In this document: positions 6,373 to 62,810 of the stretch, piece by piece
Position numbering within the stretch: the stretch's first letter is position 1
How the letters are laid out: each line of letters starts with the position of its first letter
Assembly (NCBI GenBank): GCA_035235625.1
Contig: CP141149.1
Location: 10,818,893-10,882,892, forward strand
Direction: 5' to 3'
Source: Saururus chinensis
Taxonomy: Eukaryota; Streptophyta; Magnoliopsida; Piperales; Saururaceae
Length of the DNA stretch: 64,000 bases
Made by a program: the position numbers and the translations under genes
The notes under the pieces: generated by a model
What the model saw: only the letters and a program-made list of their open reading frames with translations
The model's database searches: none
What the model was told of the DNA's origin: nothing

Positions 6373-7310
6373 TCCTCCCCTCTTAGGAATTTTAGTCCTC
6401 CAAAATTCTCTAAAGGTCGGCGTCAAAAAAACTAAGATAAAAGTTCACAAGTCTTCTCATCTTTTCACTTCCACGTAGCTCCTTCAACCTCGTGATTCCA
6501 CTTTAAGACTTTCACAAGTGGAATCACCTTTTGCCAGAAAGTCTTCTCCTTCCGGTTTAGGATCTAACCAGGTGTCTCCACATAGGAAAGATCGTCTCGT
6601 AACTCCAACAGCTCAAAATCCAATATGTATGTTGGGTCTGGCTCATACTTCCGAAGAAGCGATACATGAAACACATTATAGACATTAGCAAGCTAAGGCG
6701 GCAAGGCTACACAATAGGCCATAGCCCCAACTCACTCTAAGACCTTAAATGGTCTAATAAACCTAGGAGACAACTTACACCATTGGCAAAACCGAACTAC
6801 ACCATGGAATGGAGAGATCTTAAGAAACACATGATCAAGAATGTTAAACTCTAACTTTCTCTCATGTTGCATGAGCACACAACTCAAGCCACAAATTGAG
6901 GCATCACTATCGACCACATATCCACAACTCCTGGAAGGCAAAGTTAAGACCGGAGTTAAAGTCAATCTCATCTTCAACTCTTTGAAGCTCTCTTCACAAC
7001 CTTGATTATGCACAAATTTCTTATTCCTCCTTGTCAACTTGGTCATGGGCATTCGAAATAAGTTTCATGCCTAAAATAGGTTTAACAAGGAATTTAACCT
7101 CCTTAGCGGAATGCAATCCCGAAAAACACAACTTCAAACATCGACACCATTGAATGGATTCCAAGGAGTAGTTCCGCACTCGTCATCGAGATGCTTGAAA
7201 GAAAATTATATACCCTCTATTAGTCTACCTTCTAACCTTAGTAAAAGACACAGAGAATCTTCCACTAGAACACTTAATACCCTAGAAGAAAAAAGTCTCA
7301 ACCTCGGGTA
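6373..7310 (-). mobile_element. Gypsy chromovirus-like internal fragment
   Basis: On the minus strand, 6732-7052 reads residues typical of the RT/RNase H junction (a 'LTLTPVLTLPS' then 'VDSDASICGLSCVLMQH' pattern) followed by an integrase C-terminal pattern (FNILDHVFLKISPFHGV, LSPRFIRPFKVLE). The stretch 6400-6730 continues with an integrase-tail pattern (DLSYVETPG, IPLVKVLKWNHEVEGATW). These belong to Tekay/Del-type chromoviruses. The copy is strongly shortened and carries several breaks. It leads directly into the LTR ending at 6372. Confidence 0.65.
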
Positions 7311-15880: not shown

Positions 15881-16148
15881 TCACCTTTTTTTATTAATAA
15901 AAATTAAGGTAATAAATTTCATATAATTAATACTAGCACAATGTAGTTATAAACAAGCAATTCAGTATAAAAAGAAAAACACTTTAAAAGGAAAAACAAT
16001 TGGAACATGTGAATCACCTTTTTTTATTAATAAAAAATAAGGTAATAAATTTCATATAATTAATACTAGCACAATGTAGTTATAAACAAGCAATTCAGTA
16101 TAAAAAGAAAAACACTTTAAAAGGAAAAACAATTGGAACATGTGAATC
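15881..16148. repeat. Near-perfect 133-bp tandem duplication
   Basis: Two units, 15881-16013 and 16014-16148, start TCACCTTTTTTTATTAATAA and end TTGGAACATGTGAATCA. They appear to differ only by an A insertion or substitution near the start, so the duplication is recent. A degenerate third relative (AAATTGGAACATGTGAGTCA) is at about 16253-16275. Confidence 0.9.
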
Positions 16149-17276
16149 ATTATACAACCCTGTCCAATATGGTGAACAAACACTTCAAGAAATCTCACAT
16201 AATAAACATAATTCTATATTAGTATTTTAGTACTAAAAGAAAAATATTTGAAAATTGGAACATGTGAGTCATTGTGCTACCATGTCCAAAGAGACACTTC
16301 AAGGCCCGTTGCACCAAGCAGTCAAAAATTAAAACTAATTGTTCTAAAATGAGATATTTTAATCTACTCACCAAGAATTTGTTTGAACAATAAAATTCAA
16401 ATAATTTATAAAAGAAAAACAGAGGAACATATGCCTCCGGAGATCAAGTCTCCTCAATCTAATCCAAAGTAACTATTAAAATTAAGGCATAAAGAATCAC
16501 ATTTTGACAGCTCAAATTAACGAAATAAAGATACAAACATTATTTTAAAATAAAACTAGAGCAAGCATAAGATTTTAAAATAGCGCAATGTGGTTACCTT
16601 CAATGCCAGCAGCCGAAAGTTGTAGAGTAAATATTTTGCAAACAAATAGTGGAGTATGTTGCAAGAGAGCAGAAAAGTGGCTTTCATGGAGAAGATGCTG
16701 AGGACAAGCTGTATGAGCGAGCTAGGTGAGTCGTCGAAGACTGGGATCTTGACCAGAGCTGGCTGGAGGAGGAGGAGGCTAGGAAAAGGAAAAGGAAAAG
16801 ATACATCAACATCAAGAAGAAGAGGGGGGGAAGTGGTTTCTGGCGGAGGCAGAGGAGGGAATATGGGAGGGAAGATGAAGCAAGAAAAGGGGCTAACGGT
16901 GATGGAGACATCTAGCAGGGGGAGAGAGCTGCTGAAAGCATTGAGGGATGTAAAGCTTCGTCGTCGCCTAGCCTTAGAGATGGCCACCTCCACCGGACTG
17001 GGCTTATACCCATAGGATTGGGCTTTTTTCCTGCCTTCCTCTGCTCATCCCGGCCGCACCGTCCCTCCTTCCTCTACTCGGTCATCATCACCATCGTCTT
17101 TTGTTTGCCTCCGCCTCCGCTCCTCGATTCGCTGGTGACCCGCCTATCCCGGGTAGCTTCCACTTTTCTCTTCACTCCAAGAGCTACTACAGCAACACAT
17201 GGCTGGGTTCCTCTCCAAAAGGCCCTACTAGCGGACTAGGCTTGGGGACCTTCTCACACCTACTCCCTTGGACATG
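16149..17276. other. Left flank of CACTA; GC-rich unassigned genic-looking DNA
   Basis: Between about 16640 and 17270 the composition turns GC-rich. Both strands carry overlapping open frames: plus 16656-17015 (119 codons, Arg/Gly-rich) and minus 16556-16993 (145 codons, Ser/Pro/Leu-rich). Neither shows a family I recognise. A GTGAGT donor-like site on the plus strand (16725-16730) follows a frame reading MEKMLRTSCMSEL, so a host exon is possible but unproven. The CACTA element inserted at the ATG at 17274-17276; the flanks would otherwise join here. Confidence 0.3.
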
Positions 17277-18109
17277 CACTATAACAAATTAAACCTTTTG
17301 CAACAAATTAATTTATTGCAAAAGATACTATTTTATGGCAAAAAGCTTTTTGCGACAAAAATAAGTTCGTCCTAGAGTTGTTGCAAAAGGCTCATCTCAA
17401 AAGGTTATTTGCAACAAAATAAATTGTCCCAAAAGGTTTACTTTTGCGACAATATTATGTCACAAAAGGGATGCTTTTTTGTCGCAAATGCTATAATTAT
17501 TTAGATAAAACCCAATAAAAATTGTCGCAAAAAAATTAAAATAAAAAAATAATTTTGTATTTGCAACAAAGAAAATTTGCTGTAAAAATTATTTTCAAAA
17601 TTATAAATGCAACAATAATTAATCATTCCAAAACAAGAAAATATATTTGCCACAAATGCATTCCATTCTAAAAAACTAATCTTTAGTATTTGGGACAAAT
17701 TATTTTGTCCCAAAATGTATCTGCAAGACTATTTGGGACAAAAAAATTTCGTTTTAAAAACATTTGAAATTCCAAAAAAAAATATTTGATAGTTTGCAAC
17801 AAAATTTTCTTATAAAAAAAATACATTTAAAAAATCAATAAAATTTCTACAGTTAGATCAATAAGCACCAAACAAATGCCTGCCTAAAAAACAAAGTTCT
17901 AACTCTGGCTTGAAAGAAATGGGGAAGTCTACGCAAATTTGGAGAACAATTTCAAGTACATATTTGGACAGTTGGAATAGAATACGGGCAAGCTCTCAAT
18001 GCCCCACCCATCCAAAATTTCTAAAATAGGTTTCACAGTTGATCCTATTAATAGAATTAGTACAAGCAGAAATCAAAATTAAAGCTCATGCTCAGGAATA
18101 AGTAGCCTT

Positions 18110-18790
18110 CATGTCCAATGGGAGAATTTAACCTTCTTAATGAGATAAACAAGAAATATAGGTCAGACAATTCAACACCTACGTCATGAAAATATGTTAC
18201 TTGACTCTTTTTCTTTTTCTGCAAGATAGTTGAGAAAACATAGTCCAAACTCCTATGCATGTATGTTCTAGTAATCATATGCATATAGAAGGACATGAGA
18301 CTAAGAGGAAAGACAAGAAAAGGCAAAAAGTAAAAAGATATATGGGGAGACTCCAACTCTAGTACCAGCGGCATTTGCCGATCCCAAATTTCCAGAAGTA
18401 AGGGAGTATCTTAGATCACTTGTAATAGTTTTAGCTTAATAGCAAGATGAAGGTTAATATCTTTGCCATCATCCACACTATTTATAACAGAGAAAGCAAG
18501 GTAGACTAACTTTAATAGCAAGGTGAAGGTGAACAACTACATTCGATAAAGCATCTCTCAATATTGATACTTGGAAAGATATAAGTAAGAAGTTTGCTTA
18601 CATGCCCAAATACAGTTTTTACCATTCTGCACAATCCCCTAAGCAAAGGACCAGCAAGTTCCAGCCTTCTGTTTCCATAGTGGTCCCTGTCATCTTTTAG
18701 TTGTTGTCCAAAAGCACAAAGCAGAATTCTATATATAATGTACCTTAGAGAGTTACAGTAGCAAATAACTATCATAAGCTGTAATAGATG
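18110..18790 (-). pseudogene. NRPB2: Captured NRPB2 (RNA polymerase II second-largest subunit) fragment
   Basis: Read on the minus strand, 18640-18770 gives YRILLCAFGQQLKDDRDHYG and then GNRRLELAGPLLRGLCRM, followed at once by a GTAAAA donor-like site. This matches the DDRDHYGNKRLDLAGPLL block of the RNA polymerase II RPB2 subunit. Further along the same strand, 18110-18150 reads SLRRLNSPIGHEG, matching the RRLNSPIGREG block that lies downstream in RPB2. The two blocks are in the gene's order, with about 450 bp of intron-like sequence between them, so a genomic segment rather than a cDNA was captured. The great majority of the ~1,190-residue protein is absent, so this cannot be a polymerase subunit. 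Conservation of both blocks is good but residues differ (for example G-H-E-G where G-R-E-G is usual). It lies directly downstream of the endoglucanase fragment in the same orientation. A Pol IV/V paralogue is less likely given the DRDHYGN wording. Confidence 0.78.
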
Positions 18791-19115
18791 AAGGACCACA
18801 TGCATTCAAAACAGAATTTACCCAAAATAAAATCCCTTCTACGTCTCACAATTTTCTTAGAGTAAACAAGAGCATGAAGAATCTGAAGTCCCTGTCATAA
18901 AATATACAAAAGATTAGTCATTTCTTGAAAGTTTAATCGTTAGCTGATTCATGCCAGCTGAAAGACTAAAGCAAGCATCTCAGATTATGAAACTTTTGAT
19001 TTGCACATATTCTTAATGGTTCTGACTCTAAACCAATATTTAGAGTGATTGGAGTCGCCAATACAAGAGTTCAGAGCGTTTCAACCTGGCAGTAAATTTG
19101 GTTGATAGTGGTGGC

Positions 19116-19786
19116 CTAGGAATTGAGGGTGCACAATAAATAATTAGTGCCCCATCTGATGAGTTCCCTGGCGTGATTGTATTCACCAATGGCCTTGTAC
19201 TTGTCACTGTATTCAATCAGAGTCCAGCTTAGCATGCTCATTGAGAAGACCATTGGAAAGCTGAACTTGATATTGTCTCCCGCATCATAATATCCTCCTA
19301 CGAGCCCTCCTTTCACATCGGTCAATCCCAATCCATCTTCCAAGCCTGAGTCCCCTCGCCATGGCACCCCATTGTTCTTTGGAAGCTTCCCTGCTGCAGG
19401 ACCCAGTTCCAGAATCATCAGAAATTGTCAAACTGAAACCCCAATGTTGTATGGATGTTGAACTGGTGATTTCTCGTGATCTTATAAATTTAAATGATCT
19501 TAAGCAAAAATCAGATCTACCTAAATGGGCCATATTTCAGGATTATTGAATAGTTCATTATCATTACCATATTGGAGAGATCCCACCAACACTTGAGTTT
19601 GAAATCATCAGTAAAAGCTACAATGAGATAGATAGAAATTAAGAGACAAAAGAAGGAAATTTACTCACACTTTTGAGCATTGAAAAATTGGAGGACCTTG
19701 TGATGGGCCAAGGTGTAATTATCAGGGGGAGGACGGCGTGGGTGGTTGATCTCGTACGAGCCACCCCAATGATTTGCTGAATGCAT
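19116..19786 (-). pseudogene. Captured KORRIGAN-type GH9 endoglucanase fragment, two exons
   Basis: On the minus strand a start at 19786 opens a 118-bp exon (19786-19669) reading MHSANHWGGSYEI and then NHPRRPPPDNYTLAHHK. A donor GTGAGT follows; an acceptor ending CTGCAG precedes the second exon at 19393, which reads SGKLPKNNGVPWRGDSGL, DVKGGLVGGYYDAGDNIKF and ELIRWGTNYLL and ends at a TAG at 19118-19116. Spliced, this is a 131-residue frame. These are the N-terminal tail and the first part of the catalytic domain of membrane-anchored GH9A endo-1,4-beta-glucanases (KORRIGAN family, cellulose synthesis at the plasma membrane; ~620 residues). Homology continues past the stop (ATTINQIYCQV). The acidic tail and the membrane anchor that should separate EI from the PPPDNYT segment are missing, and the catalytic residues of the C-terminal half are absent. 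The intron shows capture from genomic DNA. It sits upstream of the NRPB2 fragment in the same direction. Confidence 0.85.
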
Positions 19787-20159
19787 CATGGTCCCTGACT
19801 CAGCACAATGTCATTGAATATATGTGTTTTTCTGCAACCTAAGATTGAACCATAAAAAATGTCACTCCCAGTCGTCCAAATGATATAAATGTTCATCAAA
19901 AGACTAGTAGAATTAAAAAACAGAGTAGTTTCATTACTCAACAGATCATATGAATACCTGTTTGATGAGTGCCTCAGTGAAAATTGGGATTCCCGCCAGC
20001 CCAGTTATCCAATGTGATCAGTTGGGTGCTATGGCGTTCCAACATAAGAATAAACTTACCGAAATATCCTTGTCAACCATTTTCAGATTAGTCAAATAAT
20101 CATCATAAGACTGTCTAGTTTTTTTTTTTAAGAAAAACAAAAAAAACTGAGTGATTCAT

Positions 20160-21060
20160 TGATGAAAGCTTGCATCTGGCTACCTGTTTGATGGGTGCCT
20201 CAAAGATAAGGGCAATCTGCAAAGGACATGCGATTATCAATTTACGTGCAGATCAATACGCCTATCCAACAATCTATTCAAGCCATACACAGTTTTCACT
20301 TCAATGAAAATCTCAAGAAAGACAAACATAACAAACAATTCCAAAGTACAGAGAATATGGCAATGCGACAGTGCAATATTATTATCTGACCAACAAGGAA
20401 ACCATTAAGAAGATAAGAAGACAAGACACAAGTTAATTATTCTGGACGGCAAAACTATGACAGAAAACATGCATTAAAACAGAACAAAAAATGGATCTTA
20501 ACAAAAATAAATTGCTGTTGTGGCTTTTGGGACAACTCCTTATAACTCATAAACAAAGCTGATTCCTATCAGTGGAAGGCAAATATAGCAAAGCCTTTAC
20601 ACTGGTCATCTCAGAATGAAGGAATACTGTAGTTGCCTCACTTTGAATCCAACACGAAAAATACCACCTTTGACTCTACAATTGATAGAGCGACAATATC
20701 CCTAAAAATCTTTAAAGGGACACAGATGTGAAGATGGAGGATAACCCATCAGCTAAAATCCAATTCTAGTGCTGCGAACTGAAGAAGAGGATGGTTAATG
20801 TTGGGGAGAGCCTCTTGCAGCGCCGTGGCGGGAAGAAGGCTTTGGGCGTGAAGGTGGGAAGCGCCGATTGCAGCGAGATGGAGCCGGAATCAAGATGCCG
20901 TCAACGCGATTTGAAGCCCTACTGCAACGGAGCACGATCGCGCAAAGCAGTGGAAGGTGAATTAGGGTGAGGCTGACTAAACTGGGGAAATCTTGGAGGT
21001 ACAGCCGTGGGCGGGAGTGGGAAATTTTCTTGGCGCGGGAGTCCTGCACGCCAGTGGAGG
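20160..21060 (-). other. Unrecognised genic-looking segment inside the CACTA
   Basis: The stretch 20800-21060 is markedly GC-rich against the surrounding AT-rich DNA and on the minus strand is open for 84 codons from 21049 (MQDSRAKKISHSRPRLYLQD). At 20171-20219, also minus, a short exon-like piece reads IALIFEAPIKQ between an AG and a GTAGCC; a related phrase recurs near 19955-20010. This could be the 5' end or untranslated leader of a further captured gene and might supply a promoter for the downstream fragments. I do not recognise the family. Confidence 0.35.
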
Positions 21061-23582
21061 ATTTGTTTCATTTTTTATGTGGCAGGTTTGGATTTTGGGT
21101 TTGGGTTAGAACCCAACCTGGAGTCGAAGTTCTTTTGACCCGACCCACTAACCCACCGAATATGAGCAAAAAAAAACCCACCGAAATAAGAACTAAGAGT
21201 CGATTTGAAGCTCGGTTAATTCTAATAATTAAAACTAAATTAATCTTAATTTAGATCTAAAAAATAATATAACTAAAGTTAAATATAATCTTGTAATTTA
21301 ATTAGAAACTCAAGTCAGGTTGGTTTTTGAATTTTTCACATATTAATCCCAACTCGACCGAATTCAGGATTTATTTAGATACTTATTTCTTGGACTTAAC
21401 TTGACCGGGTCAATCTTAAATCTTAGGTCAGGTTTTAGTTTTCAACACTGCCTTAGGTTACAAGTGGATTCTTTGATTCGTTGGTTAAAAAATTATATCC
21501 ATTAATTCACGTATCAACGAATGAGTTTTTTTAAATAAAATTAATAATTAAAATGGGTTTTTTAGCCTAAAATACATAATTTTTCTTAAAAGTAATATAG
21601 ATTATAATTATATTAATAAATTAGTAATTTTCACATAAATAGATTTATGAAAGGAAAATTTAGTTTCATTGTAATTATTAATACATAAAATTATTTTTAT
21701 TAGTGTATTTTCATCAATTTGCATTACTTTTTTTTATTGTCAACAAAAAATTAAGGCAAGAAGGGTACAATATATGTAGAGTACAATCTTATCGATCATA
21801 GTGTAAGTATTATATATACTAATTAAAATTATATATGATATGTTGCAAACCCAATAATAACATGACAAATAATTAACTACTTTTTCATTTACATAAAACA
21901 TAGATTTGGCCAACCAGTACACCTAAAGGCAACTAGATATGGTTGTTAAAATTACAAGGGTTCAAGTGAAAAGAGTTTTCAATGCACCCTCAAACTTGTC
22001 CATGTATTGAGGGTATTCACAATTTAAGCACATCACCGCTCAACCTTTTTCAACTATTTACTTCTTACCTCTTTTAACATGCTACAATATGCATGCTTTC
22101 AATATATGGAAATAGTGGTGCTTTGAGCACACCCTCGGATGCCCCCTCCCCCCTCGAGGACCCAATTGATTTTTGAGCTTCAAAAACTAATTTACACTAG
22201 AGTATATAATATATTTTGAATACTCACTTGACATGATATCATTTGTAAAGCATCGAATACATAAAGAATTAAGAGAATGAGGCAAAAAACTTAAAAATAT
22301 TATGCAGTGTGTCTATATGTATATATTATATATAACATTGAATAATTGCTTATCATTTCATAAATATTAATCATTTATAAACTATCACATATTATTTGGT
22401 AAATATTAATCAATTAATTTATGTATTTATATATTTTACATAATAAAACATATATCCATATTATATCCTACATATGGTATATGGTTTTACATAACAAATA
22501 TATATATTTATGAAATTTTTTATTTTGGAAAAGAACTTTAATAATGTATAAAAAATATTTGATTTAAAAAAAACTATAACTTTTTTTTTTTAAATACCAC
22601 CTATGATATGTTTGGAAACTCATTGAAAATAAGCATAATAAAGTCTTGAAAAATATATGAATATAAAATATATTTATAGTTTGTTAATTTAGTAAGAAAC
22701 CTATTTGAAAAAATCTATTACTAACTCGAACAACTTTTCATTTAAATAAAAAAATAACTATTTGACAATTTAATGTAAAAAATTCCTATTCGCCGTAAAC
22801 TAGCTAACTTGTTGCACAAGGTATATACTTTTTGTGATAAATTTCTAAAATTCTCTCAAACATATAGTTAGGATATTTTTACCTTTTTTCTTTTAAATAA
22901 AATAAAATGAAGCCTATTTAGGACACATTGTGAATTTTGTTGCAAAAATCAATACAATTTGTTACAAAACTTCTTACTCATATCAAATAATCAAATAGTA
23001 TTTGCAACGAATTAAGCTTATTGTTGCAAATGCTCTCTTGCTTTTTCAAAGTACATCTTTTTTTGGATGAATTTTAAAATTCATCCTAAAATGTGACTTT
23101 TAGGGACAAATATTTATTCGGGGCAAAACGTTTAGTTGTAGTGCTTTTGCAACAACTAATAAAATTTATCGCAAAAACATTTTAAAAAATTATTATTATT
23201 ATTATTAAATATTAATGAGAATATTTTTAGGACAAACTACACATTTTGTCATTAAAAGGCTAGAACCTTTTCGATAAAACAAAATTTTGTTGCAAAAAAT
23301 ATAGACATTTTGCAATGAATTCCCTTTGTTGTAAAAAAGTAGGTTTTTTGCCATAAAGTGAAAAATTCGTTGCAAAAGAACTAACCTTTAGTGAAAAAAA
23401 ACCCATTTGTTGCAAAAAAATCACATTTTACAAGTACACCAAGTTTTTGTAACTAAGTCTTTAAAATTGTCGCAAATGATATATAATTAGCGACAAATTC
23501 TTGTTTGTGGTAAAAAAATTTATTCCAAAAGGGTCTTTTTATTGTAGTGATGTGAATTCCCCTGATCTTTGTCCCCATTCGT

Positions 23583-23672
23583 TATCTTTGATTCGTTTTG
23601 CACGCTTTTTAGTTCTCTTTGATTCGTTTTTCACGTTCGTCCTCTTTGATTCGTTTTTCACGCTTTTCTGAT
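23583..23672. repeat. Three copies of a ~30-bp repeat
   Basis: The phrase TCTTTGATTCGTTTTNCACG occurs at about 23585, 23616 and 23643, about 30 bp apart, between the right end of the CACTA and the O-methyltransferase promoter. Confidence 0.75.
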
Positions 23673-24234
23673 TTTGGGTTTGCTTATCATTTTTGGTAAC
23701 CGTAACGGCCTCCGTCTCCGTCCCTTAGCTTGGTTGTGACGTATCCAGTTTTAATAGTGGCTAACGGGCTGACGAAACTTCACCAGCATATTCACGTCCG
23801 ACGCGGCTGCTTCATGCCTCATCACTTTCAAAGTACTATGTAGACCGCTACCATTAATGCTTGTCTCCACTTTTAATGCAAGGATGTCTGTGGATTCCTA
23901 CCGGATTAGCATGTGTCTTACTGCCATGCACAGTAAGTGAGACCTGCCTTGAATTGATTTCATTGCAACATTCATACTCGGTAAACAAAATTTAAACTCA
24001 TGCGCCTTAAAGATGATCTCGACAAATCTCACAAGAGTGCAACATGTTGCTTGCTACCTATTAAATAATGTCATCTACGTAATTCACGTTGAGTTCATGC
24101 CTGCAATTAAATTTATCTCCAACTTCAAGCCTTTGGGTCTGCGCGCCCAACTCCACATCCTTTTCTTCTAATACAAAAAATCTTTAAGCTTAGTCCAAAT
24201 CAACAAGTAGCCTCCTGGCCTCTCCAATTCCCAA

Positions 24235-24244: not shown

Positions 24245-24698
24245 ACCATCAAGTTAGAACGCTAAATCCATTGATTGCTGCCAACCATCTTCTCTAGTTT
24301 TGTTAGATTTCCCTTCGAAGTATTCCGTTGTTCTTTCTCGGCTTCAGCTGGATGGCTTTATCAAAAGTAGAGGCAGCGGAAGAGATGCTCCAAGCTCAAG
24401 CCCACGTAATGAACTACCTCTACGCCTTTGTTGGACCCATGAGCCTCAAATGTGCCGTAGAGCTCAATATACCGGACACCATCTACAAACATGGTGCTCC
24501 CATGACTCTTACAGACCTCGTCTCTGCCCTCGGCCTTCCCGCGATACAAAAACCGCACCTCCGCCGCCTAATGCGCCTTCTCGCCCACTCCGGCTTTTTC
24601 ATTATACAAAAAAATGGCGGTGATCTCGGCGAAGAAGCCTTCCTCCTTACTCCATCCTCCAAGCTCTTAATAAAGGAAACCAAGACGAGCATGGCAAC

Positions 24699-25597
24699 TG
24701 TTAGCCCCCTAACTTGATGGATGCGGAAAGGGAGCGGCTACTCCCATACTTGGCAACGGACAGCCAAGTTTTGCTAGGCGACGGACAGCCTAGACAGCCC
24801 CTTGGGCACGGACGGATGCTGGGACAGCGCGGGAGATGTTCCGGATGAGCTACTCGCCTTGCGGAGCAGGCTGGGTAGGAGTCCTTGCACGGACGGGACT
24901 CTTGCGGCGAAGCTGAGCGCTGCTTGGACTTAGGGGAGGACTCCTAAGGCGGATAGGATTCAGCGTATGCTGGCTGGCTGAACTCCTAGTTGGAGTAGGA
25001 GACCGGGCAGCAGGCTCCTAGGATGGACAGGACTCGTACAAGCAGGCTGGCTACACTCCTAGGACGGATGGGAGTTGGTTGGCTGGTTCCCTTGGATAGC
25101 ATGACTCTTGGTGGCAGCATGGCGAAGGACTTCTAGTGGAAGACGGACTCGCGAAGGCTTCCTTATCTATGCAATCCCGGAATGGCTTTGGGTTGAGAGT
25201 TGGACAGGGTGAGGACACTTGTATTGGGTGGGTTTTGTACTTCTAGTCGCTCTAGGACGGCCAGCCTATGGCTGGGTCTATATAAAGGGATGAGAGGGGC
25301 GGCCAAGGCATGAGAATGCTCTGATTTTTCCTGCGCAGCGAACCAGGGAGAAAGAGAGGAGAGCTCTCAGCCTTGGTGGTTCAGCCCTGCCCTCTCCCTA
25401 CTTGTGTATTTCGATGGACTGATTTACATAGCTTGGGCGGAGACCCTTGCACCAGGTCGGACTGTGTTGCAGGTTGGTTGCTTTGCTTGTTTTTCCTTGC
25501 GCATACGAGTGGGAAGGGAAGAGAGTGGCTGCTGACTGCGTGGTGTAGTCAGGCCATCACGAGTGCGAACGCTAGGCAAAGCTTCGTGCCCGTAACA
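24699..25597. mobile_element. Solo LTR (899 bp) with perfect 5-bp TSD in O-methyltransferase exon 1
   Basis: The insert begins TGTTAGCCCCC and ends CCCGTAACA, with short inverted ends TGTTA/TAACA. GCAAC stands at 24694-24698 and again at 25598-25602, a perfect 5-bp target duplication. A TATATAAA box lies at 25279-25286 on the plus strand, as in many LTR promoters. Most of the LTR (about 24720-25250) is a GC-rich degenerate repeat of ACTCCTAGGACGGA- and GGCTGGCT-like phrases. There is no internal region, so it is a solo LTR; copia, TRIM or gypsy origin cannot be decided by eye. The perfect TSD points to a fairly young event. Confidence 0.9.
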
Positions 25598-25602
25598 GCA
25601 AC

Positions 25603-26026
25603 CATGGTGCAAGCATACATGCTCGAGATGACAATGCTCCCATGGTACAAGCTAAGTGCCTGGTTCATGAACGAGGGCACCACTCCTTTCGAGCTAGCCT
25701 ATGGCACAACGGCTTGGCACTTCATGAGCCAAAATCGTGAGGCGAATGACTTGTTCAATATCGGTATGGCTAGTGACAGTCGGCTCACAGCTAGCGCTTT
25801 TGTGGCAAAGTGTGGTGGAGTCCTCAAAGGGATAGGTAAGATGGTGGACGTGGGTGGGGGGAATGGGACGGTGGCTAAGTTCATTGTGGAGGCGTTTCCA
25901 CACATCAAGTGCACTGTGATGGACCTGCCGCATGTGGTCGATGGCCTGGCTGAGCTCCCTGGAGTAGACTTCGTTGGTGGAGACATGTTTGTGTCTGTTC
26001 CTGCAGCAGATGCAGTTTTCCTCAAG
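25603..26026 (+). CDS. O-methyltransferase exon 1, distal part (SAM-binding fold)
   Basis: Continues in frame from the target site: MVQAYMLEMTMLPWYKLSAW, then the AYGTTAWHF segment, VDVGGGNGTVAKFIVEAFP and MDLPHVV, ending in AVFLK before a GTTAGC donor at 26027. This holds the dimer helix and the Rossmann-fold cofactor pocket. An open frame extends upstream into the LTR from 25373, but those residues are LTR-derived. Confidence 0.85.
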
Positions 26027-26065
26027 GTTAGCTACCTATTAAAATGAAGTTTTTTTTTTTTTTGA

Positions 26066-42291: not shown

Positions 42292-42435
42292 GGTCTTGGG
42301 ACCCAATGTGGAGCACTCACTTGTGAGTATTCTCATAAAAGCTAAGCAATCCATAAATGCTAGCATGAGTCTTCAGTGCTCACTCGGTGTTTGTGGGAGC
42401 ACTCACATTTGAGTGTTCCACAGTGGATCCAAAGC
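42292..42435. mobile_element. Mutator-type MITE, 144 bp, copy A
   Basis: The left end contains GTGGAGCACTCACTTGTGAG and the right end, read inward, GTGGAACACTCAAATGTGAG, forming a foldback with arms of about 50 bp. Flanks TCCACTGCT (42283-42291) and TCCACCTCT (42436-42444) match at 7 of 9 positions, as for an old 9-bp target duplication. Copy B of exactly the same length is at 47082-47225. Confidence 0.75.
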
Positions 42436-42636
42436 TCCACCTCTACCTGTAAAACTTGCTTCTCCCTCCACAATTGCAGTGGATAGGTGTTCCTCGCTTC
42501 CATCCATGCAGGCAATTTTTTGTGAGTGCTTCACAGTGGATCCAAAGCTCCACCTCTACCTGTAAAACTTGCTTCTCCCTCCACAATTGCAGTGGATAGG
42601 TGTTCCTCGCTTCCATCCATGCAGGCAATTACTCAA
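42411..42636. repeat. 113-bp tandem duplication overlapping the MITE end
   Basis: Unit 1 starts at 42411 and unit 2 at 42524. About 100 bp, from CACAGTGGATCCAAAGCTCC to GCAGGCAATT, appears identical in both. Unit 2 includes a second copy of the last ~25 bp of the MITE, so the duplication came after the MITE. Confidence 0.88.
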
Positions 42637-46829: not shown

Positions 46830-46870
46830 GGCCTAGAGTTTGTGTCTGAACCCCACAGGGAGAGGAGATC

Positions 46871-47078
46871 ACACACAGGTGCTAAGATTGAGAGCATCGG
46901 GAGAGGAGGGAGTGGCGGAGAGTTGGGTGGGTGGAGAGGGAGGAAAAACAAGTAGGCAGAGAAGGTGCGCACTCACACACAGGTGCTAAGATTGAGAGCA
47001 TCGGGAGAGGAGGGAGTGGCAGAGAGTTGGGTGGGCGGAGAGGAAGGAAAAACAAGTAGGCAGAGAAGGCGCGCACTA
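46871..47078. repeat. 104-bp tandem duplication
   Basis: Unit 1 is 46871-46974 and unit 2 is 46975-47078. Both run from ACACACAGGTGCTAAGATTG to GGCAGAGAAGG(T/C)GCGCACT with only a handful of differences. It lies 40 bp after the dirigent stop and directly before the MITE. Confidence 0.9.
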
Positions 47079-49190: not shown

Positions 49191-50872
49191 TGTGGCACGT
49201 CGAGGCCTAGGGCATACGACTAAGTCTCACGTTAAACTCTATAGGTACGAATAGGGTGAGTGGACTCTGATAGGAGAGGATGAGAGGGGAGAGAGCATTT
49301 AATTTTTATTTTAAAGATTTTTTAATAATATATTTTTAAAAAATAATAAAAATTTAAGAGGTATTAGGGACGCGTAAGAATATGCATCGCTAATACCCTA
49401 GGTATTAACAATGCATATGAGTACACATCATAAATACCTAGGGTATTAGCAACATGTTTTCCTATGCATCACTAATGCATTTAATATTATTTTTAAAAAT
49501 TTTAAAATATAATTTGTAATTAATTTTAAAAAATTATTAATTAATTTCTCATGCTCTCTCACCTCTCCTTCTCAAAGCCGGGGCTCACACTAACATGCGT
49601 GAGAGAGAGAGGTGGAAAGGAGAGAGGGATGGAGGGATGGAGGGAGAGAGAAGAGAGAGGAAAGAGCTAGGAGAGAGAATAAAGAGAGGAGAGAGGAGAG
49701 AGAGGATTTAAATTTTTATTATATATTATATTTTAAAAATAATTAAAATAAAATAAGAGGTATAATAATGCATAGGGATATGCGTCGCTAATGTTGTATG
49801 TACATATTAGTGATGCAAATTGATATGCATTGCTAATACCTAGGGTAATAGCTACTCGTATTCCTCTGCATCGCTAATACATTTTATTTTTTTAACTTAT
49901 ATTTTTTTAAGATATAATATGTAATAATTAGTCCCAAAAAATTAAAATTAAATTCCACTATTCTCTCCCCTCTCTTCCTATGAGTTAGGGCTCAAGCTGC
50001 CGTGTGTGAGAGTGAGAGGAGAGAGGAGGTAGAGAGAATGAGAGGAGAGAGATAAGATAGGGTGAGAGGAGAGAGAGGGAAATTGAAGAGAGAGATAAGA
50101 AAGAGAGGGAGGGAGACATAGAGAGATGACAATAGACATGAATTTGAAAAATTAGACAAACAAAAATAGGCCAAACAGGAGGATCGTTAGACTCTGATGG
50201 AGGAGGAGAGGGGAGAGATCATGAGAGTTAATTTTAAATTTATAAGATTTTTAATTAATAACACACTTTTATAAAAATAAAAATAAAATAAGAGGTATTA
50301 GTCACACATAGAAATATGTGATGCTATTACCCTAGGTATTAACAGCACAATATGAGTATGTGTAGCAAATACCATGGGTATTAGCAATGCATATTCCTAT
50401 GTGTCGCTAATACCTCTTTTTTTTATTTTTTAAAATATAATATATAATTAAAAATCTTTAAAAAGTTCAATTAAATTCCCTTGCTCTCTCATCTCTCCTC
50501 CTTAGAGCTGACGAGCATAAGAGAGAGGAGGAGAGAGAGGGAGGGAGGGAGAGAGAGAGAGAACAAAGGAGGGAAAGTGAGAGGACATACATGGAGAGAG
50601 TGAGAAGAGAGAGGAGCAAGTGCGAGTGATGAGAGAGAGAGGAGAGATATGAGGGAGAGAGTGAATGAAGAAAGAGGAGAGAGAGGGGGGAGAGAGAAGA
50701 GAGTGAGAGGAGGAGATAAGAGGGAGAGAGAGGAGGAGAGAGAGAAGAGAGTGAGAGGAGAGAGACAAAAGGGAGAGAGAGAGGAGGAGGAGAGAGAGAT
50801 AAATAGTATAGAACAATTTTAAAAAATAGCATTTGTGACACTTTTTTGTAAGTGTCACAAATAATCAACTAA

Positions 50873-53800
50873 TGTGCCTGACGTAGGCACAATTGCTATT
50901 CGGGAGGTTCACGCAGTGAAAGGGGAGAAACAAGGAAGAAAGGGGAGAAGTTATGAGTAATTCTAATAGCATAACCCTAAAAAAAAGAAGAGGATTGCCC
51001 CTTATAGGAGACGATAAGTCTCCTCGGGAGTCGCACCAAGCTTTGCCATGTCGGCCCAATTCCTTCGGCAAACATGCCAGTTAGAAAAGTAAAGTCTAGT
51101 AGTCTGGGTGATCGTGCACAACACTCCACCACACTTATGCTATTCGTCTTGTCCTTAAGGTGACCAAGTCAGATATCAAGCCATAAACACCTCCTTAGGC
51201 ATTCATGTGGAATCATCATGTGACTGGCCCTACCAAGAAATTAGAACCTCAATAATAATGCGCCCAGAGTGACAGACCCAACGCTTATCAAGAAGCGAGG
51301 CAAGAATAGGGTCAGACGATAGAACCGGGCCCAACAAAGGGGGTGCTGGAGTAGCAGCAGCCAAGGACGTGTCACCCACAAAGCAGCGCAGTAGGGATAC
51401 ATGAAAGACAGGGTGAAGTAAGGAGTCAAGCAACAAAGTAAGGCGGTAAGCCACCGGACCAATACGTGCCTTGACAACATATTGACCATGGAAACAGGGG
51501 GCGAGCTTCGAGTGCTCAGGCTGAAACAAAGATGTTTGGAGCTAAGGCATAACTGAAACATAAACCAAGTCACCCACCACGAACTCCTGGTGAATGTGAT
51601 GTCCATCATAAATCTACTTCATCTGGTTTTGAGCGGAAGACAAGTTCTCCTTGAGCTGATGCAGGATCTCATCTCGTGTCTGGAGCATATAATCCACCTC
51701 AACCACCGAGGAACGGTGAAGTACATACGATAACACGGTCGGTGGCGGGCGGCCATACATCACCTCAAAAGGAGTAAAGCCAACATAAGTATGATAAGTA
51801 GTATTATAACACCACTCTGCCCATGGAAGAAGCTGAAGCCATCTGCGGGGTTGCATCATAGTGAAGCATCGAAGATACTGCTCCAAACAATGATTAACCA
51901 CCTTAGTCTGGCCATCCGACTGAGGTTGATAAGCAGCACTCATATGGAGAGAAGTGCCCTGTAAAGTGAAGAACTCCTGCCAAAATTGAGAAATGAATAT
52001 CCAGTCACGATCAGAAAGAATAGTACGGAGCATACCGTGGAGTTTGGCCACCTCTCGAACATACATCTCAGCCATTGTCTTGGCAGTGAAGGGATACCCC
52101 AACGCACAAAAATGGGCTTACATGGACAGCCGGTCCACCACCACCATAATAACTGACTTACCTTGCACCACGGCAAGGCCTCCACAAAACCAATCAAAAC
52201 ATCCTCCCATACCTTATCTGGAATAGGTAATGGCTGCAACAAACCAGTGGGAGACGTTGTGGCGGCCTTAGCTCTCTGACAAACATCACAAGCGGCCACA
52301 TACTCTTGGACACCCCAGCGAATACCCTGCCACAGGAGGCTCTGGCTGACCCGCTTATAGGTGCGGAAAGCCCCTTCATGACCGGCCACAGGAGAGTCAT
52401 AGAAGTGGGAGAGAATGCGACAACGAAGGACAGCGACATCGGGTGCCCATAGGCGGTCCTTCCAAAAGAGAAGGTCATCCCTCTACACAAAGAAGGGCCG
52501 AGCAGCAGGGTCGGTCTAGAGGGCTGCAATCACAGCCTGCGTCAATGAATCAGCAAGGTATGCCTGCTTCAACTCATCAATGAATGGACAAGATAGAGTA
52601 GAGAAGGCCAAGCAAGAGCCCGAGCAAAACCTGCGAGAAAGAGCATTGGCCACGTGTTCTCGGACCCTTTCTTGTACACAACCTCATAATCATAGCCGAG
52701 TAACTTGTGGATACTCGTTGTGCCAAGAAATACTTCAGGGGCTAGTGGTCTGTGTGAATCAGGAACCAACGGCCAAGTAAGTAAGGCTGCCACTTATCGA
52801 CAACAAGGATGATTGCCAACATTTCCTTCTCATACACGGACAGGGACAAAGAGTGGCCACCCAAAGCTTTGCTGAAGTAAGCAATGGGGCGCTCATTCTG
52901 GAGTAGAATTGCCCCAAGCCCCATCTCTGAAGCGTCTATCTCCACCATGAAAGCCCGGCTGAAATTAGGTAAGATCTGGACTAGGGCGGCGGCCATAGCC
53001 CCCTTCAAATGCCTCTTGGGCAGCTGCGTTCCAAGTAAAAGCCCCCTTCTTGAGTAGCTCTGTAAGGGGACGAGCCAACTCTCCATATTGATTGATGAAC
53101 CGCCGATAATAACCTTTAAGGCCCAGAAAATCCTTGAGTGCCTGGACGCAGGTGGGTGGCGGCCAAGAGAGCATGGCGGCCACCTTGGCGGGGTCAGTGG
53201 CAACCCCACTCCTCGAAATAATATGGCCCAAGTAATCAACCTACGGGCTGCCAAAGGAACACTTTGAACGCATTAGGAGTAAGGAGTTGTTAGTAGCCCA
53301 TCAGGACCTGAGATGCGTCAAGTGCTCTGCCCATGACATGCTGTACACCAAGATGTCATCAATGAAAACAATATATAGAGGTGGAACAGCCTGAAGAGAT
53401 CGTTCATGAGGCACTGAAATGTGGAGGGGGTGTTGGTCAGCCTGAATGGCATGACAAGGAATTCAAAATGGCCATCATGAGTCCGGAAGGCGGTCTTGTG
53501 CACATTGGCTGGCTGCACCCAAATCTGATGGTAACCCAAACAAAGGTCGAGTTTATTGAAGACCTTGGCACCCATCAGCTCGTCCAACAACTCCTCAATC
53601 ACTGGTATGAGATATTTGTCTTTGACAATGATTGCATTCATGGTGCGGTAGTTGACACAGATCGCCATGTACCGTCTTTCATCCGAACCAACAACACCGG
53701 AGATGAGTAGGAACTCGTGCTAGGGCAGATGATCCCGGACTAGAGCATGTCAGCCACGAGACGCTCAATCTCTGATTTCTGTATATGAGGGTAATGGTAA

Positions 53801-58735: not shown

Positions 58736-60828
58736 CCAATAATAGTACTATTAGCAACACTTTTTATAAAGTGTCTCAAATACGGGTACTATTAGCAACA
58801 TTTTTATAAAAACATCGCTAATAGTTTTAATATTAGCGACACGTTTTAAAAAGTGTCACTAATAGTTATAAATTATAAATATATAAATAAAAAATTTAGT
58901 ACTATTTGCGATTCTCTTTTAAAAGTGTCTGTAGTTATTTGAACTATTAGAGACATTTACAAAAAAGCGACCCAAATGAAATAAATTTATTTTTTTAAAA
59001 CAAATATAAGCATATTAGAGACCCTTTGTTAAAAGTGGCACTAATAATACCACTATTAAAAAGTGTCACTAATAATACCACTATTAGTGTTGCTTTTAGA
59101 AAAGCGTCACTAATAGCTTTGCTAATTTATTTTATTTTTATTATTTAAATATATAATATATAATAAATAAATATTAAAAAAATTTAATAAATAAAAAATA
59201 GTACAATATATTTATTATTTATTATTTTATATATAATAAATAAAAAATAAAATTGTCCTATTTATCCTCATTCCTCCTCAAAGTTGGCGCTCACGTTCAT
59301 GTACATGCATAGAGAGAGAAAGAGGAGAATGAGAGAGAGGAGCGAAGATAAAAGAGAAAGAGACAAGAGGGGAGAGAGAGTAGTGAAGAGAAAGAGAAAG
59401 GCGAGAAATAGAGTGAAGAGAGTGGGGAGAGAAGAGAGAGTGAGATTAGATAGAGAGAGAGTGAGATTAGATAGAGAGAGAGTGAGACGAGAGTGAGAGA
59501 TAAATAAGGTAGAGAGAAGATAGACATAGGAGAGAGAGAGAAGAGAGATAGAGAGAAGAAAGAGCGTGAAGAGAAAGAGGAGAGGAGCTAGAGAGATAAG
59601 AGAAGAGGGAGAGAGGAGAGACGAGAAGAGTGAGAGGGTAGAAAGAGGAGAGAAGAAGATAGAGGAGAGAGAGTGCATAAAGAAAGAGAGGAAAGGGAGA
59701 GAGAGTAGAGAGAGAGGGAAGAAATAAATTTATATTTTTTGGGATTATTTATTATATTATTATATTTTAAAAATAAAATATATTAGCGACACTTCATAAA
59801 TTGCATTACTAATATATTTTATTTAAATTTTTTTATTAATTTTAAAATTTAATTTATAATAAAAGAGAGAGAAGAGAGAGAAAAGAAGAAGAGAGAGTAA
59901 ACAGAGTGCATAGAGAGAGGAGAAGAGAGAGTGTGTGTGAAGAGGAAAAGGAGGGTAGAGAGAGATGAGGGAGAGAGGAGAGGAGGAGACATAAGAGAGA
60001 GGAGAGAGTGTAGAGTGTGTGAAGAGGTGAGAAAGAAGAGAAATGGTAGAGAGAAAGATGAGTGGGAGAGATAACAAATATAGGAGAAAGAGAGGGGGGA
60101 AGAAATTAATTAATTTATTTTTATTTTTTTATTTTATTTTATTTTTAAAAAATAATAATAATTTAAAATAAAATATATTCACGATGTTTATTACGTTGTG
60201 TCATTATTACCTAGGATACTAGCGACCCAAGTGTTGCTAATATATTTAATTTAATTTAATTTATTAATTTTAAAATATATTTTATACTAAAAACATGATA
60301 GAGAGAAAAAATAAAAAGAGAGAGGAGAGAGAATGCATAAAAAGAGGAAAAGAGAGAGGGTAGAGAGATAGTGGAGAGGAGAGAGAAGGGAAAGAGATAG
60401 GTTAGAGAAATATTAGAGAAAAGGGGGATAGAAATTAATTTATACTCCCTCACTCCGTCCTATATTAATAACTCCAGTTGAATAAAATAATATTTTATAT
60501 TAATTACTCCATTTAGGTTAATTCAATAGTTATATAAGTCTGAGAAACTTTTCAGATAATTTAGAAAAGAAAAAAACCTATATATCGGCTGCACCATGGC
60601 GTCTCGCATGGGGATTTTGGGTCCATCGAACCACGCATCCTCACTGATCTTGTAGCTGTCGTTTCATTGCGCCAAGTCCACCTCCCAGACGACAGCTCCT
60701 GCTTGAAATCCGACCACCCGCAAGGGCGAATATCAAGTAATAGGGCTGTGGATAAAGCGGAGCTCCTTCTGGTATGCAAACTGCTCTGGGGAGAACTTGA
60801 GGCCCAGGAAGCTGCGGAAGAGAACTAG

Positions 60829-61250
60829 AGAACCGGAGTGAACTGCGTTACTGGTCAAGGAGGCACCCCACAATACATGTCCCCCGAGGCCGTGACCAGC
60901 AGCTGCTTCGAACCGCCCATGGACATGTGGCCTCTCGGCTGTGTGGTACTGCATATGCTCACGGGCAAGCCGCCTTGGGTCCCATCATCAGATGAGGAAT
61001 ACCAGGGCGTCCCCTCAGACTTGCCCGACTTGTGCAAGGATTTCCTCAACCGCTGCTTTGTGCGAGATGCGGAGTACGATGGATGGCTGATATGGTTCAA
61101 GACCATCCTTTACTTCAAGCTTCTTCAGAAGATGATGACGATTACAACTCTTTATTTTTGGTGGATAAGAATGATGCTGAGGACGAGTCAGTAAAGTACA
61201 TGAGCAGCAACGAATTGCCGACGAACTTGATGTCGCTCGTAGTGAGCTCA
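60829..61250 (+). pseudogene. MAPKKK-type protein kinase fragment
   Basis: The plus strand reads RTGVNCVTGQGGTPQYMSPE, AVTSSCFEPPMDMWPLGCVV and LHMLTGKPPWV, then DLCKDFLNRCFVRDAE: the activation-segment end (GTPQYMSPEA), the subdomain IX D-x-W-x-x-G motif and the subdomain XI region of plant MEKK-like MAPKKKs (MAPKKK17/18/20 type). After RDAE (about 61075) the homology shifts one frame to VRWMADMVQDHPLLQASSED, so there is a frameshift. A stop stands just before the first block. The ATP-binding lobe and the catalytic loop are absent, so it is inactive as a kinase. The C-terminal acidic stretch (SSEDDDDYNSLFLVDKNDAE) may also be kinase-derived. It lies inside the Stowaway-like element. Confidence 0.82.
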
Positions 61251-61716: not shown

Positions 61717-62810
61717 CAGAAGACGGGCCTTTGGTGCCACCTCCACCCAATCCTCTCCCTCCACGAGGGACTGGCCCTCTTCTGCGAGCTCACTGCCACT
61801 AGACAATGCCTCGTTGTCGTTGGCAGGTGGAACCTACGCTCTTTGTGAGGTTTTGTCCAGCATCTACATTTATGACTCTCTCTAAGTGAGCTGGCATTGA
61901 GGGGTCCCCATGGTGGGCCCTCGTGGTGGTTGTTCATTGCCTATGCATCAGATATGACAATGCGTCTTACACTCTGACCTCCATGTTGATGAGCTTCAGC
62001 TCGGTGAGGCTGCGAGCAACAAAGGGGAAGGCGGTGACGGAGATGGCCACAACAAAGAAAAGGATAGTCTTTTGGAAGGGGGATGTCTCGAAATCCAGGG
62101 CATTACCATGAGAAATTTCCCTATGCTATTACTTACGTAAGACTTACCATAAAAAAATAAGAAAAATAGAGCTATTAATAGTGGACATGGGGAGTATTTT
62201 TAGGATTTTTATATATTATTATATTTTAAAAAAATAATAATAATTTGATATATAATATATTAGTGATGCTTACTACTACCATAAGTAGTAGCAACACATA
62301 TACGTACGTGTTGCTACTACCATAAGTAGTAGCGACAAATATGTGTATGCATCACTACTACATAGGATACTAGCAACGTAATTTGACATGCATTGCTAAT
62401 TTATTTTATTTATTAACTTTAAATATAATTTATAATAAAAGAGAAAGGGTAGAGAGAGAAAATAAGAAGAGACACTAGAGAGAGTGCATAGAGATTAAGG
62501 AGAGGAGAGAGGGGAGAGAGAGGGTAGAGAGAGACAGTGAAGAGAGAGAGATAGGGTAGAGAGAGTGAAGAGAGAGGAGAGAGGGCAGAGAGATTGAAGA
62601 GAGAGGGTAGAGAGAGGAGAAAGAGTGAGAGGTTAGAGAGAGTGAAAAGAGGGACGGTAGAGAGAGTATGAAGAGAGAGGGTAGAGAGAGTGAAGAGAGA
62701 GAAGGCAGAGAGAGAGTGAAGAGAGAGAGGGTAGAGAGTGAAGAAAGAGAGAGAGTAGAGAGAGAGGAGAGTAGGGTGAAATGAGAGATGAGAGAGGAGA
62801 AATTTTTTTA

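Follow-up and report, generated by a model that had tools for sequence, protein, structure and literature searches.

DNA transposons of the CACTA (En/Spm) superfamily share a layout of terminal inverted repeats (TIRs), subterminal repeat arrays and a 3-bp target site duplication (PMC8978399), and several plant lineages contain members that have taken up host genes. Here we analyze such an element, of about 6.3 kb, at positions 17277–23549 of a 64-kb stretch of Saururus chinensis contig CP141149.1 (the window), whose content indicates a plant host. A close counterpart is soybean Tgm-Express1, a 5.7-kb CACTA in which fragments of five unrelated host genes, both exonic and intronic, are combined; it differs in its cargo and in sitting in an F3H intron, with spliced chimeric transcripts shown, whereas the present element is located upstream of a gene (PMC1947982). 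The Pack-CACTAs of Arabidopsis, maize and rice are likewise bounded by TIRs and contain coding DNA, and maize Pack-TYPE elements often contain more than one locus, Pack-CACTAs most of all; these elements were called in multi-member clusters, whereas we have a single copy (PMC8903248). CACTA gene capture was also described for wheat chromosome 3B, with 140 events, but there 74% fall in one named family and transcription is seen for 26% of the captured genes (PMC4290129). Finally, the Tpn1 family of Ipomoea nil comprises 339 copies of non-autonomous CACTAs in which the ends are conserved while captured genic host sequence has taken the place of the interior; it is a named family, and its genome also contains relatives that bear a transposase (PMC5105172). 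These soybean, maize, wheat and Ipomoea cases bear out the statement, made in an earlier note on this DNA, that CACTA elements can carry host gene pieces.

We consider it very probable that 17277–23549 is a non-autonomous CACTA transposon of the Pack-CACTA kind, containing genomic pieces of two host genes, one for a KORRIGAN-type endoglucanase and the other NRPB2 (RNA polymerase II second-largest subunit), and now a passenger in the genome. The class reportedly goes back to Catoni et al. 2019. The left TIR of the element, CACTATAACAAA (17277–17288, plus strand), is mirrored by CACTACAATAAA on the minus strand at 23538–23549; on the plus strand the right terminus reads TTTATTGTAGTG, with 23549 as its last base and ATG immediately after it. 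Comparison of the two ends gives 10 identical bases in the first 12, 14 in the first 20 and 22 in the first 30, and a perfect ATG/ATG duplication (17274–17276 and 23550–23552) flanks the unit. Similarity extends well inward, since the left 624 bp and the right 406 bp yield a local alignment about 380 bp long that scores 109 (mean 62 and maximum 88 in 100 dinucleotide shuffles). Counted with at most one mismatch on both strands, the motif TTTGCNACAAA occurs 15 times in each subterminal region, the left spanning 17277–17876 (600 bp) and the right 22901–23549 (649 bp); the matches on the right divide into 5 in 22901–23143, where one site was counted on both strands, and 10 in 23144–23549. The 5 kb between these regions contain one match and the 57.7 kb outside the element 18 (5 in 17.3 kb and 13 in 40.5 kb), so that densities are 21–25 per kb in the subterminal regions versus 0.2–0.3 elsewhere; the window total is 49, compared with 10.7 expected. 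The inverted CACTA...TAGTG termini, the 3-bp duplication and the arrays of direct and inverted subterminal repeats place the element in the CACTA (En/Spm) superfamily. All three had been claimed in the earlier note, and we reproduced them, the outer coordinates exactly.

What qualifies the element as a Pack-CACTA is the host coding DNA inside it, together with the failure to detect a transposase of its own. A Pfam scan of every stop-to-stop frame of 35 or more amino acids, 76 in total (shorter frames were outside the scan), gave no transposase model at E ≤0.1, in agreement with what had been stated before. GH9 was matched by a single frame (3.2e-29), as was Rpb2 domain 2 by another (1.6e-5). 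Five more families matched one frame each at E 0.032–0.09 (Exonuc_V_gamma, DUF5017, Pox_D2, TraQ_transposon and DUF1240), values of chance-level size for 76 scans. In 17000–24000, every Rfam family stayed below its gathering score.

KORRIGAN is an enzyme of the cellulose pathway, and a fragment of this type lies on the minus strand at 19083–19789, where it was recognized through Pfam, solved GH9 enzymes and a presumed KOR1 sequence. A GT-AG intron (GTGAGT...CTGCAG, 19394–19668) joins its exons in frame, and the spliced frame runs from an ATG at 19789 to a TAG at 19118–19116, encoding 132 amino acids, with similarity continuing beyond the stop to about 19083. The fragment had been placed at 19116–19786 without mention of the stop; its presence stands and its limits are corrected accordingly. 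The 132-residue product matches solved GH9 enzymes (E 1.3e-28) and positions 1–105 of the 444-position GH9 profile (E 6e-36), that is, the first quarter of the domain, and the piece is truncated. In what we take to be the Arabidopsis KOR1 sequence, the good match begins at residue 99. Fourteen residues upstream in the same frame resemble the N-terminus of this KOR1 sequence (7/14 identical), a match that is not significant alone (E 14); if it is real, the fragment would be missing residues 15–98, where KOR1 has its membrane anchor. Over 113 aligned residues, the fragment is identical to the presumed Arabidopsis stretch at 77 and to the presumed rice stretch at 87, the latter two being identical to each other at 84. 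The choice of KORRIGAN over other plant GH9 enzymes depends on these presumed sequences.

The NRPB2 fragment (17992–18856) is also on the minus strand and covers, with gaps, residues ~360–556 of the presumed Arabidopsis protein sequence. One exon ends at 18822 and the next starts at 18743, and the GT-AG intron between them (18744–18821) joins them in frame (...FYFG to YIIYR...). The pieces match Pol II RPB2 chains at E 2.9e-24, compared with 2.1e-6 or weaker for archaeal subunits, 2.3e-4 for Pol III RPC2 and 1.3 for plant Pol IV/V. Since the presumed NRPB2 sequence finds Pol IV/V chains at 8.6e-24 in the same collection, which includes these subunits, they were matchable, and an origin from Pol IV/V is ruled out. 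Frame-tolerant alignment with this NRPB2 sequence exceeded all 40 shuffles in 4 of 11 stretches of the element (scores 157, 92, 63 and 46 versus shuffle maxima of 48, 46, 42 and 35), all within 17850–18930, and failed to do so in the seven others (18880–19090, 19070–19470 and 19790–22900). The span of 18110–18790 proposed earlier captured the right gene but was too short, as similarity extends from 18856 to 17992. A peptide at 18.82–18.89 kb, in a frame other than that of NRPB2, had no match.

This second piece is plainly decayed, a condition that had gone unremarked. Its first recognized exon contains one in-frame stop, with a further stop just upstream, outside the recognized similarity. Shifts of frame between adjacent matches indicate 1-nt deletions near 18435 and 18140, and residues 413–427 and ~500–543 are unrecognizable. 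A 27-bp direct duplication (85%; 18436–18462 and 18512–18538) inside the fragment adjoins the unrecognizable residues 413–427. Identity to the presumed Arabidopsis NRPB2 sequence is 97/133 aligned columns, and that sequence is itself identical to a metazoan RPB2 at 102/134. The picture suggests a long history without constraint.

Taken together, the fragments confirm the earlier claim of two unrelated host-gene pieces in the same orientation, and the "intron-like spacing" described for both corresponds to one GT-AG intron each. No open frame runs through both, and a KOR-NRPB2 fusion protein is excluded as the sequence stands because of the KOR stop and the NRPB2 lesions. Among conserved columns, KOR retains 72 of 84 (Arabidopsis-rice) and NRPB2 76 of 102 (plant-metazoan), a difference short of significance (Fisher p 0.069). 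When bacterial GH9 serves as the outgroup, KOR retains 47/56 (p 0.23) or 44/56 of the rice-bacterial columns, Arabidopsis itself retaining 48/56. With these values, a difference in age between the two fragments is not supported.

The remaining cargo is less readily interpreted. The minus-strand stretch at 19790–20759 contains exon-like pieces with no recognized relative and a 62-bp direct duplication (19915–19976 and 20141–20202, 78%); for 19.8–21.1 kb no relatives were found in Pfam, nor among solved-structure sequences searched with one guessed 53-residue product. Some peptides at 19.95–20.2 kb resembled 5' exons of NRPB2 by eye, which, if real, would place KOR inside NRPB2. We rejected this candidate, as frame-tolerant alignment scores peaked at 37 in 19790–20300 and 29 in 20000–20130, below the highest shuffles (45 and 38, respectively). 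Next to this stretch is a GC-rich segment (20760–21070; GC 0.56, CpG observed/expected 0.96, probably minus strand), one of six CpG-island-like stretches in the window by our own cut-offs; it would be compatible with a promoter and could represent the 5' part of some gene that was captured. The CpG observed/expected ratio is 0.18 in NRPB2 and 0.32 in KOR, compared with 0.52 for the window, which would fit past methylation without proving it. The AT-rich interior at 21071–22900 shows no convincing coding similarity in its Pfam-scanned frames.

Inside the right end lies a feature absent from the earlier note, a degenerate second right end at 23131–23143 on the minus strand (CACTACAACTAAA), with one mismatch to the terminal consensus. 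Such a match arose in 2 of 300 shuffles of the right subterminal region and in 15 of 300 (5%) of the whole interior. Aligned from this end, the sequence ranks first among 800 positions when compared with the outer right end; compared with the left end, it shares fourth place among 860, with the same score as the true right end. For the 244 bp inside it, the scores are 75 with the left end (maximum of 100 shuffles, 72) and 67 with the outer right region (shuffle maximum 63). Position 23144 is the best of 790 (tied with 23145) as the start of a left-end copy beginning at base 19; the best position outside this cluster scores 35 versus 40, a weak distinction since the subterminal repeats share the same unit. 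Tiles of the region have no clear preference between direct and reverse similarity to the left end. Capture has been described as the work of two neighboring elements that lose their inner ends by deletion or mutation (PMC8903248), and the inner end is perhaps a relic of two such fused CACTAs, for which the evidence is suggestive only. In its specific form, a fossil of capture in which a degenerate right end is immediately followed by left-end-like sequence lacking the first 18 bases, as would be expected had two neighboring CACTAs in the same orientation fused through loss or mutation of their inner ends and thereby acquired host DNA, this is a tentative reading that we hold to be rather doubtful, and the region would also be accounted for if the right end had simply been duplicated. 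If true, the fusion relic would offer structural evidence, from a single locus, in favor of the tandem-insertion model of capture by Pack-CACTAs.

How the element would be mobilized can be outlined by analogy with the superfamily. In En/Spm, action of the transposase on the element ends is established. A trans-acting transposase from an autonomous relative would bind and cut the terminal and subterminal sequences here. Before that, the element took up genomic DNA with its introns from a KORRIGAN-type endoglucanase gene and from NRPB2, plus a stretch of unknown origin, and insertion at the present site created the 3-bp duplication. It is now most likely a passenger, probably silenced; a minus-strand transcript splicing the captured exons could be made, and the chimeric RNA, or small RNAs against the parent genes, that the earlier note suggested from transcription of the GC-rich segment are possible. 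That the introns are retained means that genomic DNA was captured, and the GT-AG intron in each fragment contradicts an origin of the cargo as retrocopies of processed transcripts, to which we give next to no credence.

Several points weigh against a single Pack-CACTA. Its mobility as a composite unit rests on one insertion, the match of a 3-base duplication has by itself a chance of about 1/64, and both gene pieces were identified via distant homologues and presumed sequences of plant proteins (Arabidopsis, rice). Moreover, no second copy of the whole unit was found in the 64-kb window and the degenerate inner right end hints at more than one element, as if two separate CACTA elements or solo ends flanked a host pseudogene patch that never moved with them. 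We nevertheless regard that arrangement as decidedly improbable, for the outer ends point inward and share TIR and subterminal sequence (109 versus the shuffle maximum of 88), the 3-bp duplication matches, and the interior combines fragments of unrelated genes. A different challenge concerns only the passenger status and is compatible with Pack-CACTA identity: the GC-rich segment could drive an active chimeric gene, giving a functional truncated KOR or a regulatory RNA against NRPB2 or KOR. The CpG-island-like segment does lie upstream, the 132-residue frame is open across a canonical intron, KOR is nominally the better conserved fragment, and CACTA-captured genes are reported to be transcribed in wheat (PMC4290129) and chimeric transcripts to occur in soybean (PMC1947982). 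However, that conservation difference is not significant, KOR ends in a stop and covers 105 of 444 GH9 profile positions, and NRPB2 carries its stop and two frameshifts. The 64 ungapped inverted-repeat pairs in 17000–24000 have a longest arm of 39 nt, and among the longest 25 no long arm lies within the cargo. An active gene appears very unlikely, and we retain the passenger Pack-CACTA as the best explanation.

The element is real, yet of an already familiar type, and several unrelated genes in one CACTA are not unusual, as multi-gene elements are documented. Judged by titles and the starts of abstracts, which makes for a weak negative, we found no report of NRPB2/RPB2 or KORRIGAN as transposon cargo: nothing paired RPB2 with Pack-MULE, NRPB2 with transposon and gene capture, or CACTACAACAAA with transposon, while matches pairing CACTA, KORRIGAN and transposon look unrelated and, for the RNA polymerase II second-largest subunit, the matches listed are fungal studies. 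The locus provides a well-bounded example of plant DNA transposons shuffling unrelated gene pieces, including one from an RNA polymerase II core subunit. Should the inner end be a true fusion relic, it would become a concrete test of Pack-CACTA gene acquisition; otherwise, it is one more case of a well-described class.

An O-methyltransferase gene starts on the plus strand about 0.8 kb beyond the right end of the element (24307–24714, 25325–26044 and a further exon-like ILHDWSDEQC at ~26975), with dimerisation (E 2.4e-20) and methyltransferase (E 2.3e-29) domains; because of this proximity, the element may have inserted in its promoter. Elsewhere in the window are the remains of a long terminal repeat retrotransposon on the minus strand (51617–53719; reverse transcriptase and RNase H, plus a weak match to integrase), a retrotransposon RNase H fragment (6735–7064, minus strand, E 3.5e-8) and a protein kinase domain fragment (60829–61191, plus strand, E 3.4e-11). 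Near-perfect two-copy tandem duplications occur at 15881–16149 (133 bp, 99%), 42410–42630 (113 bp, 98%) and 46869–47077 (104 bp, 96%), and long imperfect GA-rich arrays at 50008–50799, 59311–60008 and 62440–62800.

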